Positions 7,778 through 33,244 of a stretch of DNA of 54,933 nucleotides are shown here, piece after piece (the first letter of the stretch is position 1; every line of letters starts with the position of its first letter). The DNA comes from Candidatus Aminicenantota bacterium (GTDB lineage: Bacteria; Acidobacteriota; Aminicenantia; Aminicenantales; Saccharicenantaceae), in the NCBI GenBank assembly GCA_026393975.1, contig JAPKZD010000012.1, positions 91,007 through 145,939 on the forward strand. Direction: 5' to 3'. The position numbers and the translations under genes are program-made. Below the pieces are notes generated by a model. The model was given only the letters and a program-made list of their open reading frames with translations, did not search any database and was not told where the DNA came from.

Positions 7778-9166
7778 ATGTTTAAGCCCGAAACCTACAT
7801 CCAAAGGCGAAAACTCCTGAAAAAGGAGGTCGGGTCCGGCCTGCTCCTGTTCCCCGGCAACGAAGAAAGCCCGATGAACTACCCGGCCAACACTTTCCAT
7901 TTCCGGCAGGACAGCTCGTTCCTCTACTTCTTCGGCCTGGATTCCCCCGGGCTCGCCGCCGTCGTCGACATCGACGAAAACAAGGACGTCCTCTTCGGGG
8001 ACAACATCGGCATCGAAGACATCATCTGGATGGGGAACGTGCCCAAGATGAAAGACCGGGCCCTCGAAGTCGGCGTCAAGCACACCGCGCCCCGGGCGGC
8101 TTTCGAGGAAACGGTGCGCCGGGCCCTGGCGGCCGGGCGCCCGGTCCATTATCTTCCGCCCTACCGGGCCGATTCGACCCTCGCCCTCGGCGACCTTTTG
8201 GGCATTCCGACGAAGGACCTCAAGGCCAAGGCGTCCCCCGCTTTCGTCAAAGCGGTAGTCGCTCAGAGGCTCTTCAAGTCGAAGGAAGAGGTCCGGGAGA
8301 TCGAATCCGCCCTGGAGGTCACGCACGAGATGTACCGGGTCGCCATGAAGCTGGCCAAGCCCGGCCGTTATGAACGGGAGATCTCGGGGGCCATGGAAGG
8401 CATCGCCCTGTTCCATGGCATGCGTTTGGCGTTCCCGCCCATCGTGACCATCAACGGTCAGACGCTCCACAACCACTATCATGGCAACATGCTCGTCAAG
8501 GGCAGGCTCCTCGTCGTCGACACCGGCGCGGAATCGGCCCTTTCCTACGCCTCCGATATCACCCGGACGATCCCGGTCGGCGGCCGTTTCAACCGCAGGC
8601 AGAAGGACGTCTACGAGATCGTGCTGGCCGGCCAGGAAACGGCAATCCGGGCGATGAAGCCCGGGGTCACGTTCAAGGACATCCACCTGAAGACGGCCCG
8701 GATCATGGCCTCCGGACTCCAGGGCCTGGGTCTCATGAAGGGCGACGTCGACGCGGCCGTCGCCGCCGGCGCCCACGCCCTTTTTTTCCCCCATGGCCTG
8801 GGGCACAACATGGGGCTCGACGTCCATGACATGGAGGACCTCGGCGAAAACAACATCGGCTACGACAAGACCGTCGAGCGGAGCGGCCAGTTCGGACTGG
8901 CCTATCTCCGGATGGCCAAGGAACTCCGGCCCGGCCATGTCATGACCGTCGAGCCCGGGCTTTACTTCATCCCGGCCCTGGTCGAAAAATGGCGCAAGGA
9001 AAAGAAATTTCGGAACTTCATCGTCTACGACGAGGTGGAGAAGTACCTCGACTTCGGAGGCGCCCGGATCGAAGACAACGTCCTGGTCACGGAGAAGGGC
9101 CACAAGGTCCTGGGCCCGCCCATCCCCAAGACAGTCGGCGATATCGAAAAAACCTGCCGCAGTTGA
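7778..9166 (+). CDS. pepP: Xaa-Pro aminopeptidase (aminopeptidase P, M24B)
   Basis: 462 aa metallopeptidase that removes the N-terminal residue before proline. An N-terminal creatinase-like domain (about 1-170) is followed by the pita-bread M24 fold. The five metal ligands can be placed: Asp in VVDTGAES, Asp in SYASDITRTIP, His in FPHGLGHNMGLDVHD, Glu in MTVEPGLYF and Glu in GARIEDNVLV. I chose ATG 7778, which has GAGGAGG six bases upstream; an upstream start at 7724 would lie in the promoter. It is followed after 31 bases by the NusG-like gene. No signal peptide is seen, so it should be cytosolic. Confidence 0.95.
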   Translation: MFKPETYIQRRKLLKKEVGSGLLLFPGNEESPMNYPANTFHFRQDSSFLYFFGLDSPGLAAVVDIDENKDVLFGDNIGIEDIIWMGNVPKMKDRALEVGVKHTAPRAAFEETVRRALAAGRPVHYLPPYRADSTLALGDLLGIPTKDLKAKASPAFVKAVVAQRLFKSKEEVREIESALEVTHEMYRVAMKLAKPGRYEREISGAMEGIALFHGMRLAFPPIVTINGQTLHNHYHGNMLVKGRLLVVDTGAESALSYASDITRTIPVGGRFNRRQKDVYEIVLAGQETAIRAMKPGVTFKDIHLKTARIMASGLQGLGLMKGDVDAAVAAGAHALFFPHGLGHNMGLDVHDMEDLGENNIGYDKTVERSGQFGLAYLRMAKELRPGHVMTVEPGLYFIPALVEKWRKEKKFRNFIVYDEVEKYLDFGGARIEDNVLVTEKGHKVLGPPIPKTVGDIEKTCRS

Positions 9167-23739: not shown

Positions 23740-23745
23740 GGACTA

Positions 23746-25078
<1,333 letters not shown>

Positions 25079-29777: not shown

Positions 29778-31138
29778 GAGACGAGCTTTCCTTCGAGGTC
29801 GTAGGCCCCGGCCGAGGCGACCTCGACCCGGACGATGGGGGAGGGAGGGGCGGTCATGCCGGCGGGCAGGTCGAAACGGATGACGCCGTCGACCTCCGGG
29901 GCCTGGAAACGGCCCCGCCCCACCCAAAGGCTGGAATCTCCGGTTTCGCGGCTCTCGACGAGGACCTCGACCTGTCGCCCCAAGTAGCCCCTGTTCCTCT
30001 CGAGCGACAAACGGGCCTGAATGTCCATGATCTCGCCGCGGCGTCGTTCCTTTTCTTCCGCTTCGACGTTATCCGGCCGGCCGAAGGCCGCCGTCCCTCT
30101 CTCCGGCGAATACGTGAAGACGCCCAGGTGGTCGAAGCGGGCCGTCCGGACGAAGTTCCGCAGACCGGCGAATTCCCGCCGTCCCTCTCCCGGAAAACCG
30201 ACGATAAGCGACGTCCGGACGGCGGCGCCGGGAAGTTTCGCTCGGATCCGGTCCAGGAGGCGGAGAGCCCGGACTCCATCGAGGCCCCGCTTCATGGCCT
30301 TGATCAAACCGGGGTCGGAATGCTGGAAGGGGATGTCGAAGTAACGGCAAATTTTCGGGTCGGTCATGATCTCGAGAAGCGGCTCCGTGATCTCCCCGGG
30401 GTAGCCGTAGAGGAAGCGGACCCAAGCGATGCCTTCCACCCGGACGAGGCGCTCGAGCAGCCTGATCAAGCCATAGCGCAGCCCGCGGTCGCGGCCGAAC
30501 CAGGTCGTATCGTGTGAAATGAGATCGATCTCCTTGACGCCGAGGCCGGCGAGGGTCCGGACCTCGCGGACGATGGAGGCCAGGCTCCGGGACACATAAG
30601 GCCCCTTGATCAACGGAATGGCGCAAAAACCGCAACTGTGGGAACAGCCCTCGGAGACCTTGACATAGGCCCAGGTTCCCGGAGTCGACACCAGCCGCGG
30701 CGATGCGTCCGAATAAAGGAACGTCCGGGCCGGGCTGGAGACGGGCTGGCCTTGGACGATCGAGGCGATGCGGTCGAAGCTCCGAACGCCGGTCCAGGCA
30801 TCGACCTCGGGAAATTTTTTCTGGAGACCGGGCCGGTCTCGCTCCACGTAACAGCCGGCGGCGACGATCTTTTTCCGCGGGTCTTTCTCTTTAAGACGGA
30901 GGACCGTCCCCAGCATTTCCTCGGCCTCCATCCGGGCGGGTCCGATGAAGCCGCAGGTGTTGACGATGACGACGTCCGCGTCCTCGGGCCGGCTGACGAA
31001 TGCGAACCCGGCCTTTTTCAGGGCCCCGAGCATCACTTCGCTGTCGACGAGATTCTTGGCGCAGCCCAGACTGATGAGAGCGATTTTTTCGGCGGCGCGC
31101 CGGCCGCCCGGGGCGCCGCGCGTCGGCGAACGGGTCAA
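29774..31138 (-). CDS. rimO: ribosomal protein S12 methylthiotransferase
   Basis: 454 aa radical-SAM enzyme that methylthiolates the conserved aspartate of ribosomal protein S12. It has the N-terminal UPF0004 domain ([16 protein letters not shown] with its cluster cysteines), the radical-SAM CxxxCxxC as CSHSCGFC, and a C-terminal TRAM domain. I place the start at TTG 31138, which overlaps the asnS stop as TTGA; no ATG is available before the first conserved motif. About 14 non-conserved residues precede the core. pgpA overlaps its 3' end. Confidence 0.93.
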
Positions 31139-32427
31139 GGATAGATCCTGTAGAGAAGCCGGGGGAACGGGATGGTTTCGCGGATGTGCTTGATGCCGCA
31201 GAGCCAAGACACCATCCGCTCGACGCCCATGCCGAATCCCGAATGCGGGACCGAACCGTACTTGCGGAGGTCGAGGTACCATTCGTAGGCCTCGCGGGGA
31301 AGCTTGTGTTCCTCGATGCGCCGCTCGAGCAGGGCCAGGTCGTGGATGCGCTGGCCGCCGCCGATGACCTCGCCGTAGCCTTCCGAGGCCAGGAAATCGA
31401 CGCCGAGGACGACGTCCGGGTTCTCCGGCGCGGGCTGCATGTAGAAGGCCTTGATGGCCGTCGGGAAGTGCGTGACGCAAACGGGGGAGTTGTAGACCTC
31501 GGAGATCAGCGTTTCCTCGGGCGAGCCGAAGTCGTTCCCCCATTCGATCGTCGAACCCTTCTCTCGGAGCAAAGGGACGGCCTGGTCATAGGTCAGGCGG
31601 GGGAAGGGCTTCTTGACCGCCTCGAGGGGCCGCGTGTCGCGCTCGAGGATTTCCAGGTCGTGCTTGCGTTTGGTCAAGACACGCTCCATGATGAACAGCA
31701 CGAGGTCTTCGCCGAGCTCGATGATGTCCGCGAGCGTGGCGAAGGCCACCTCGGGCTCGACCATCCAGAACTCGATGAGGTGACGCCGGGTCTTGGATTT
31801 CTCGGCCCGGAACGTCGGGCCGAAGCAATAGACCTTGCCGAAGGCCATGGCCGTGGCCTCGTTGTAGAGCTGGCCGCTCTGGCTGAGGTAGGCCTTCTGG
31901 TCGAAATACGCCGTCTCGAAAAGGGTCGTCGTCCCCTCGCAGGCGCTCGGGGTCAGGATGGGCGTGTCCATGAGGCGGAAACCGCGGCCGTCGAAGAAAT
32001 CGCGGATGGCCTTGACGACCTCGGCCCGGACGCAAAGGACCGCGTGCTGCTTCGAAGACCGAAGCCAGAGATGCCGGTGCTCCATGAGGAAGGGGGTGCT
32101 GTGCTCTTTGAGCGTGATCGGATAGTCCGCGGCCACCTGGACGATATCGAGGTCGGCGATGGTCATCTCGTAGCCGCCGGGCGCCCGCTTGTCCTCCCGG
32201 ACGCGGCCCCGAACAACGAGCGAGGACTCTTGGGTCAGCCGGTCGAATTTCTGGAAGAGGGGGGAGTCCTTCTCGGCGCTGAAGGCGGTCGCCTGGACAA
32301 GGCCCGTCCCATCGCGCACGAGCAGGAAGCGGACCTTGCCGGAGGATCGTTTGTTGTAGACCCAGCCGCGGATTTCGACATCCTGGCCATCGTATTGTGC
32401 GATGTCCTCAATATAAACCCATTTCAT
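31135..32427 (-). CDS. asnS: asparaginyl-tRNA synthetase
   Basis: 430 aa class II synthetase that charges tRNA-Asn. An N-terminal OB-fold anticodon domain (about 1-100, [23 protein letters not shown]) is followed by the catalytic core. The core has [20 protein letters not shown] (motif 2) and [15 protein letters not shown] (motif 3). Direct charging of Asn suggests the genome does not need the transamidation route for this amino acid. ATG 32427 is nine bases after a perfect TATAAT with no ribosome-binding site between, so the mRNA looks leaderless. It heads an eight-gene operon. Confidence 0.96.
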
Positions 32428-32465: not shown

Positions 32466-32494
32466 CCCGCTAGGCCATACGGGCCTGACCGTAG

Positions 32495-32619
32495 GACGCC
32501 ACCCGTTTTGGCTGTGACGGGAACTACCCATTCCCCCCCGGCCCCCGGGAACCAGTCCCGGCGGGTCCCCCTCCGCTACGGGGGCTCTGGATGGTTCCCG
32601 TCACAGCCCGGGTGGCGTC
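32495..32619. repeat. 125-bp cloverleaf-like inverted repeat
   Basis: The arms are 32495-32524 and 32594-32619. The right arm is the exact reverse complement of the left arm, except for four extra Ts in the left arm (32506-32509). The 69-base interior holds two more hairpins: CCGGGA/TCCCGG at 32545-32561 with a five-base loop, and CCCCC/GGGGG at 32567-32584 with an eight-base loop. The whole folds as a three-way or four-way structure on either strand. No gene fits here. It could be a palindromic mobile repeat (REP/MITE type) or a structured RNA. No second copy was seen in the window. Confidence 0.82.
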
Positions 32620-32660
32620 AAGACGGCGCATGCCCAGAGATGCCCGTTTCAAGCGGCCCT

Positions 32661-32701: not shown

Positions 32702-33244
32702 ATGGCTCAGCCAAAAACGTTCGCCCCTGTCAAGCTCGTCTGCGGCGTCATTTTTGGGGAGGAGGCTTTATACGAGGACGTCAAGCGACGGCTTGTCACC
32801 GAGTGGCGACCGGTCGACATGGAAAGCCCGGCATTCGCTTTCGACCTCACGGATTATTACGAACCGGAGATGGGCCCCAATCTTAAGAGACGATTCATGA
32901 GCTTCTCCGGGCTGGTCGCCCCTGAAATCCTGCCTCAAGCAAAACTCCGGACGAATGAGCTCGAGGAGGCCGTTCGCCGGGAAACGAGCGCACCGGGAAG
33001 GCCCGTCAACGTCGACCCAGGCTATCTTACCGCCTCCGCGCTGGTCATGGCCACGGCCAAGGATTTCTCCCACCGCATCCCTCTCGGGCGGGGCATCTAC
33101 GCCCATCTCGAATTCCTGTTCACGAAGACGGGAGTGAAAACTTTGGATTGGACCTATCCCGACTTCCGGAGAGGGCCGTGTCAGGAGTTTTTCCGGACCG
33201 TCCGCGAGCTGTACCTGCGCCAGCTCCGGGAGCCTCCGGCCTAG
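32702..33244 (+). CDS. DUF4416 family protein
   Basis: 180 aa. The opening FAPVKLVCGVIFGEEALYED, the middle YYEPEMGPNLKRRFMSF and the late LDWTYPDFRRG match the DUF4416 family (PF14385) as I know it. The family has no assigned function and is found mostly in Aminicenantes, Thermodesulfobacteria-like and related anaerobic lineages. No membrane segment or signal is seen. ATG 32702 is preceded by GGAG; an upstream in-frame start (32678) would precede the -10. It stands alone and converges with the cysteine desulfurase gene. Confidence 0.85.
   Translation: MAQPKTFAPVKLVCGVIFGEEALYEDVKRRLVTEWRPVDMESPAFAFDLTDYYEPEMGPNLKRRFMSFSGLVAPEILPQAKLRTNELEEAVRRETSAPGRPVNVDPGYLTASALVMATAKDFSHRIPLGRGIYAHLEFLFTKTGVKTLDWTYPDFRRGPCQEFFRTVRELYLRQLREPPA

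Follow-up and report, generated by a model that had tools for sequence, protein, structure and literature searches.

A Palindrome between asnS and DUF4416 Genes in a Candidatus Aminicenantota Genome Is Probably a Decayed Copy of a Dispersed Mobile Repeat That Works as a Folded Strand

Introduction

Small dispersed palindromes are already known as a kind, and the usual explanation for small palindromic repeats is a RAYT or an insertion sequence (IS). Integron attC sites, for their part, have variable arms and few fixed positions, and it is a single folded strand that is recognised. The GTAG and CGTC families of REP sequences have been described together with RAYT transposases (PMC3733652), and REPINs have been reported elsewhere (PMC3116915). 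IS elements, ISPpu9/10 and others, insert into REP palindromes (PMC1525189), and template switching has been inferred both to create and to maintain hairpins (PMC8794818).

Here, we describe a palindrome at positions 32495–32619 of a 54,933-nt stretch of DNA (henceforth, the window) from a Candidatus Aminicenantota bacterium (GenBank JAPKZD010000012.1), and the repeat family to which it belongs. Members of this family resemble REP, BIME and REPIN sequences in that they are dispersed, intergenic, non-autonomous palindromes, frequent in convergent gaps, foldable as single-stranded DNA (ssDNA) or RNA, and carry GTAG by their hairpins; however, they are three to four times longer, their GTAG is internal, a conserved cloverleaf core is combined with a replaced outer stem, and there is no link with RAYT, some copy-rich genomes being free of Y1 genes. 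With bacterial MITEs (RUP, NEMIS/Correia, ERIC, Nezha) and the terminal inverted repeats of TIRYT genes (PMC3733652), they have in common a length of 100–200 bp, terminal inverted repeats, the lack of coding capacity and a frequent position next to genes, as well as, in two genomes (G048 and G049), sharp ends with a possible TA; what differs is that one central core is common to subfamilies with unrelated ends. As with IS elements of the ISPpu9/10 type, palindromes appear as insertion targets, and the sites hold different or nested palindromes, but here what inserts is itself a short non-coding palindrome. The analogy with attC extends to the one folded strand, the variable arms and the few fixed positions, although the latter lie here at the apex rather than at the base. 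In the open-licence literature, we found no precedent for a cloverleaf core that is conserved while its stems are exchangeable and that occurs across phyla and free of RAYT, and no account of the repeat from Aminicenantes or Patescibacteria turned up in open-licence PubMed Central.

Results

The palindrome lies in a gap of 274 bp (about 270 bases in the original prediction) between the genes for a class II tRNA synthetase of the D/K/N group (31135–32427, minus strand; Pfam PF00152 and PF01336), consistent with asnS as first proposed, and a DUF4416 protein (32702–33244, plus strand; Pfam PF14385 and relatives), which likely starts at 32702, with an N-terminus (MAQPK...) that relatives conserve. 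Its outer stem, P1, is formed by arm a, GACGCCACCCG-TTTT-GGCTGTGACGGGAAC (32495–32524), and arm b, GTTCCCGTCACAGCC-CGGGTGGCGTC (32594–32619), which are complementary at 26 out of 26 positions apart from the TTTT bulge; the terminal GGACGC..GCGTCC is also found in sibling copies. The orientation of the family is that of the minus strand, on which arm a is the 3′ arm. The arms enclose the two perfect hairpins originally noticed, CCGGGA/TCCCGG (32545–32561) and CCCCC/GGGGG (32567–32584), while imperfect pairing (GGGC/GCCC, TG/CA, CCGT/ACGG) extends the whole palindrome to 32480–32635 in the minimum free energy fold of both strands.

Symmetry of this extent is far beyond chance, as had been claimed: the top inverted-repeat score in the gap is 44, whereas 300 shuffles average 17.3 and never exceed 29, and the palindrome is the strongest inverted repeat of the entire window. 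Folded as RNA, the plus strand reaches −104 kcal/mol (z −7.5) and the minus strand −107.7 kcal/mol (z −7.0), values equalled by none of the shuffles. It is not a tRNA, the single Rfam match at gathering level in the window being a tRNA elsewhere, and a scan as well as direct reading revealed no T-run of the terminator type beside it. A search of the element against Rfam 15 with E up to 10 returned just a weak and plainly spurious microRNA match; a known RNA was thus discarded as a candidate. Two other strong inverted repeats occur in the window, one at 23740–23802 (17-nt AT-richer stem, 29-nt loop) and one at 8813–8956 (22-nt stem, 100-nt spacer).

The repeat unit measures 125–200 bp, and intact copies elsewhere read, in the orientation of the window's minus strand, P1 arm, RTAGCGGAGGGG, hairpin P2, hairpin H3, a G-rich joint and the second P1 arm. 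The core consists of RTAGCGGAGGGG, the variable P2 and GGGAACCGNCGGGACTGGTTCCC. H3 (GGGAACC-GNCGGGACT-GGTTCCC) is near-invariant: 128 of the 141 scored copies vary at the N position only, a figure partly biased by the retrieval of many copies with the exact pattern, and H3 is equally conserved in those copies from the window's genus that were found by BLAST with the whole element. A GTAG is also conserved in the core: 93 of 133 scored copies have it, and 33 have ATAG. P2, on the other hand, varies in sequence and in length and can hold inserts. It is swapped for inserts of 107 nt at three loci of the window's genome, G000 (L006, L010, L018), and of 133 nt at five loci of PFL71 (L075, L103, L108, L110, L124); these inserts are themselves repeated in the genome and non-coding in appearance. 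The sequence of P1 differs wholly between subfamilies, yet it remains paired. For 37 copies with unrelated outer arms, pairing with their own partner yields a mean of −44.0 kcal/mol, versus −21.1 kcal/mol with the partners of other copies, and genome G049 harbours two subfamilies whose outer parts are unrelated while their cores are practically identical.

Compared with such copies, the one in the window is incomplete. On its minus strand, the conserved 5′ part of the core, CCCCCGTAGCGGAGGGGG, is present at 32567–32584 (the second of the two hairpins above), and GCCGGGACTGGTTCCC at 32547–32562, overlapping the first hairpin, is identical to the 3′ part of H3 as it occurs in copies that are intact. 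The junction between them (32562–32567) reads GGGGGACCC|GCCGGGACTGG, where L004, L007 and others read GGGGGACCC-P2-GGGGGAACC-GCCGGGACTGG. What is missing is P2 together with the 5′ strand of H3 (about 23 nt in intact siblings), and a deletion across an ACC repeat is the apparent cause. L020 shows a comparable internal loss, and L035 is without P2. Lacking P2 and half of H3, the window copy is probably an inert relic that has lost its mobility.

BLAST with the palindrome against G000 (2.95 Mb, 95% complete) yields 41 pieces, and the core half CCCCGTAGCGGAGGGGG occurs there at 31 sites with up to two mismatches, compared with four for a reversed control; about 27 core sites have no or one mismatch, 20 of them being exact. 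Hence, the repeat is not single-copy, and it is conserved beyond this genome: 23 of the 40 relatives searched within the order have matches. Exact or one-mismatch cores number 34 in G047, 33 in G048, 23 in G049 and 15 in G040. A scan of public genomes for GGGAACCGNCGGGACTGGTTCCC gave at least 99 stretches; the matches listed are mostly from Candidatus Aminicenantes, and among them are also Elusimicrobia and three lineages of Patescibacteria (Yanofsky-, Woyke- and Taylorbacteria), as well as one copy in a “Bacteroides” metagenome-assembled genome (MAG). This last copy (L133; LJUP01000147, Bacteroides sp. SM23_62) is one perfect Aminicenantes-type element, which could be a transfer or a misbinned contig. 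The MAG “Clostridiales A05DMB-I-28” agrees in contig numbers and coordinates with relative G032 of the window's order; we infer that the two are one genome, so that the label is no sign of wider spread. At the sensitivity used, viral contigs, phages and plasmids contained no match to the core, and carriage by phage or plasmid was therefore rejected. Of 380 genomes sampled evenly across the phylum of G040, only two have the core, yet one of them, G040 itself (0.7 Mb), has 15 copies. Such patchy occurrence suits horizontal spread better than an ancestral RNA.

With respect to genes, 51 copies lie in convergent gaps, 24 in tandem gaps with and 24 against the direction of the genes, and 11 in divergent gaps; the corresponding background numbers are 92 convergent, 260 tandem and 80 divergent (orientations taken from a crude ORF caller). 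Copies are thus situated mostly downstream of genes; they shun divergent gaps and promoters and have no preferred direction relative to genes. With its position in a divergent gap, the window copy is one of the exceptions and atypical of the family. Just outside window-type elements, the two flanks of a copy pair with each other more than flanks do across copies (permutation p = 0.0008); such complementarity implies that some copies are nested in other palindromes or that their own palindromes have grown outward. In two Saccharicenans-type genomes (G015 and G019; L044 and L046), the core is repeated in tandem about every 150 bp, in arrays which adjoin the end of apparently the same gene across species.

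Related species differ in what occupies a given site. At site 1 of contig C12 of G000, G000 carries a core element and G011 a short empty gap; G004 has a GGGGACACG..CATGTCCCC palindrome and G010 another one (..AAGCGGTGATT..AATCACCGC..), both unrelated to the core element. The asnS/DUF4416 site holds other palindromic repeats in the two closest species and none in G001, G003 and G012. Among the 21 loci fetched from G004, at least five share their site with a G000 copy and at least four with a G010 copy. Some positions are common to species, and G040 and G041 share a stem type beside apparently the same gene; not all copies are therefore recent.

Element boundaries are distinct in G048 (PFL71) and G049 (PFL34), where near-identical copies of about 200 bp have been amplified within the genome. 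Their terminal inverted repeats end sharply (CTAATA...TATTAG) in unrelated flanks, and the TA is suggestive, though only that, of a duplicated target. The ends of the window subfamily, GGACGC..GCGTCC, are less sharp. Core-less forms of 94 bp, common in G049, first suggested insertion with an inverted target duplication, with arms H and H′ around the core. In the one testable pair (L416/L369), the core-less copy keeps mutations of the left arm that are absent from the right arm, which speaks for deletion of the core between short direct repeats and not for insertion. In L417, where the core is truncated, matching double changes are present in both arms, a pattern that fits template switching from arm to arm.

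Covariation is strong, and the mismatches are asymmetric between the strands. Over 26 full-length copies of the window subfamily, 96% of cells are paired, and both partners have changed in 27 of 43 pairs, compared with 12.5 in shuffles and 6–12 on sliding. In a strand-neutral arm alignment of 163 copies, G.T mismatches outnumber A.C mismatches by 288 to 137 (p about 2 × 10⁻¹³, which is a guide at most, the copies not being independent); the counts are 90 and 42 in 60 representatives, 86 and 16 in the window's genus, and 16 and 2 in Patescibacteria. A palindrome maintained as double-stranded DNA predicts equal numbers of both, so that the excess points to the strand with RTAG...GGGACTGG as the one that folds. 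The mismatch counts thus support folding of this particular strand, be it as RNA or as ssDNA, though strand-biased mutation could account for part of the excess.

Searches for a gene that moves the repeat covered Y1_Tnp and DDE_3 transposases. G000 has three different RAYT-like Y1_Tnp genes (L059, L060 and L061, on contigs C15, C17 and C4) with no core nearby, and none of the Y1_Tnp loci fetched from the window's order has a core within about 1.5 kb of the Y1 gene. No Y1_Tnp gene was found in G004/G050 (more than 20 copies; G004 is 96% complete) nor in G040 with its 15 copies; many genomes with Y1_Tnp are without any core copy, and the number of Y1_Tnp genes does not track the number of cores. 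The IS630 domain DDE_3 (PF13358) gave no match in G000, G040, G047, G048 and G049, and these and the Y1_Tnp searches revealed no partner transposase of the MITE type. No autonomous parent of the repeat came to light, and two forms of an autonomous version were also rejected: the longest inserts in P2 (107 nt in G000, 133 nt in G048) do not appear to code for a gene, and the inverted pair of cores at L110 flanks ordinary genes. It is possible that the mover was recently lost or that it is of another family.

Discussion

We consider it probable, with some reserve, that the palindrome represents a decayed copy of a palindromic repeat that is dispersed, mobile and non-autonomous, resembles REPs or MITEs and acts as a folded single strand. 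This reading draws on the multiple copies, the differing sites in sister species, the sharp ends of the terminal inverted repeats in two genomes, the strand-specific folding and the internal deletions. The original prediction had left the choice between a palindromic mobile repeat and a structured RNA. The former proved the better half of that guess, given the turnover of sites, the neutral orientation and the amplified, sharp-ended, near-identical copies. From the latter, the folded strand finds support (covariation, excess of G.T), but an RNA function in cis does not.

A functional structured RNA, such as a small RNA or an element of 3′-untranslated regions with a protein-binding conserved core, multicopy as some bacterial ncRNAs are, would explain a core sequence that is invariant across phyla, the strong covariation, G.T far above A.C, and copies chiefly downstream of genes. 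We nevertheless regard it as unlikely: tandem gaps hold both orientations equally, sister species do not conserve the sites, the distribution is very patchy (two of 380 genomes in the phylum of G040), Rfam offers nothing bar the spurious microRNA, and template switching is able to produce and preserve hairpins without selection on an RNA (PMC8794818). Chance, a relic palindrome or an ordinary terminator can practically be dismissed for a multicopy structure without T-run that is far beyond shuffles, even if the window copy itself is internally deleted and probably inert.

Among known movers, a RAYT (a Y1 tyrosine transposase) acting on a classical GTAG-type REP family would agree with the conserved GTAG or ATAG beside the hairpins, with the three Y1_Tnp genes of G000 and with the intergenic, convergent-rich placement typical of REPs (PMC3733652). 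However, the GTAG is internal and not terminal, the unit is 125–200 bp rather than 20–40 bp long, the fetched Y1 loci have no core close by, and the presence of Y1_Tnp is uncoupled from that of the repeat in both directions, all of which renders this explanation quite improbable. No better is the case for an IS630/Tc1-mariner MITE with TA target duplication, in which the core would be internal filler. The CTAATAYRAACGC terminal inverted repeats of G048 and G049, which have TA at either end, and the coexistence of core-less 94-bp and core-bearing forms of about 200 bp speak in its favour, but the same core occurs in other subfamilies with unrelated ends, the five genomes tested are without DDE_3, and it is the core rather than the ends that is conserved.

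For a mobile repeat of this kind, we would propose that it spreads as a folded single strand, most likely ssDNA exposed at replication forks, and that an enzyme provided in trans binds its invariant core. It would settle mostly downstream of genes, sometimes in or beside other palindromes, and its P1 arms would be kept matched in part through template-switch correction from one arm to the other and in part through selection acting on the folded strand. A bolder version, which we put forward tentatively and with more doubt than conviction, is that the moved unit is the cloverleaf core of about 75 nt, as one folded strand, served by an enzyme family new to small repeats. The core would then cross phyla (Aminicenantes, Elusimicrobia, Patescibacteria) and palindromic carriers alike, the outer stems being interchangeable and rendered complementary by template switching.

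The near-invariant 23-nt hairpin in distant phyla, combined with outer stems that change freely and with copy-rich genomes devoid of the usual mover, provides a handle for seeking a new one. The family also calls for caution, as covariation in palindromic DNA may mimic the conservation of an RNA; comparing G.T with A.C mismatches is a cheap test of which strand folds.

Other palindromic repeats share intergenic sites with the core repeat or nest with it. At least three more families are apparent in this genus from loci in G004 and G010 (L355, L358, L364, L365) and from the flanks of three G000 copies (L007, L014, L027), including GGGGACACGTACC..ATGTCCCC, GAGCATAAGCGGTGATTTA..AAATCACCGCAGCGAACGAAGA and CAGAATTGCGGCTCCGAGCCGCTCCGCC...
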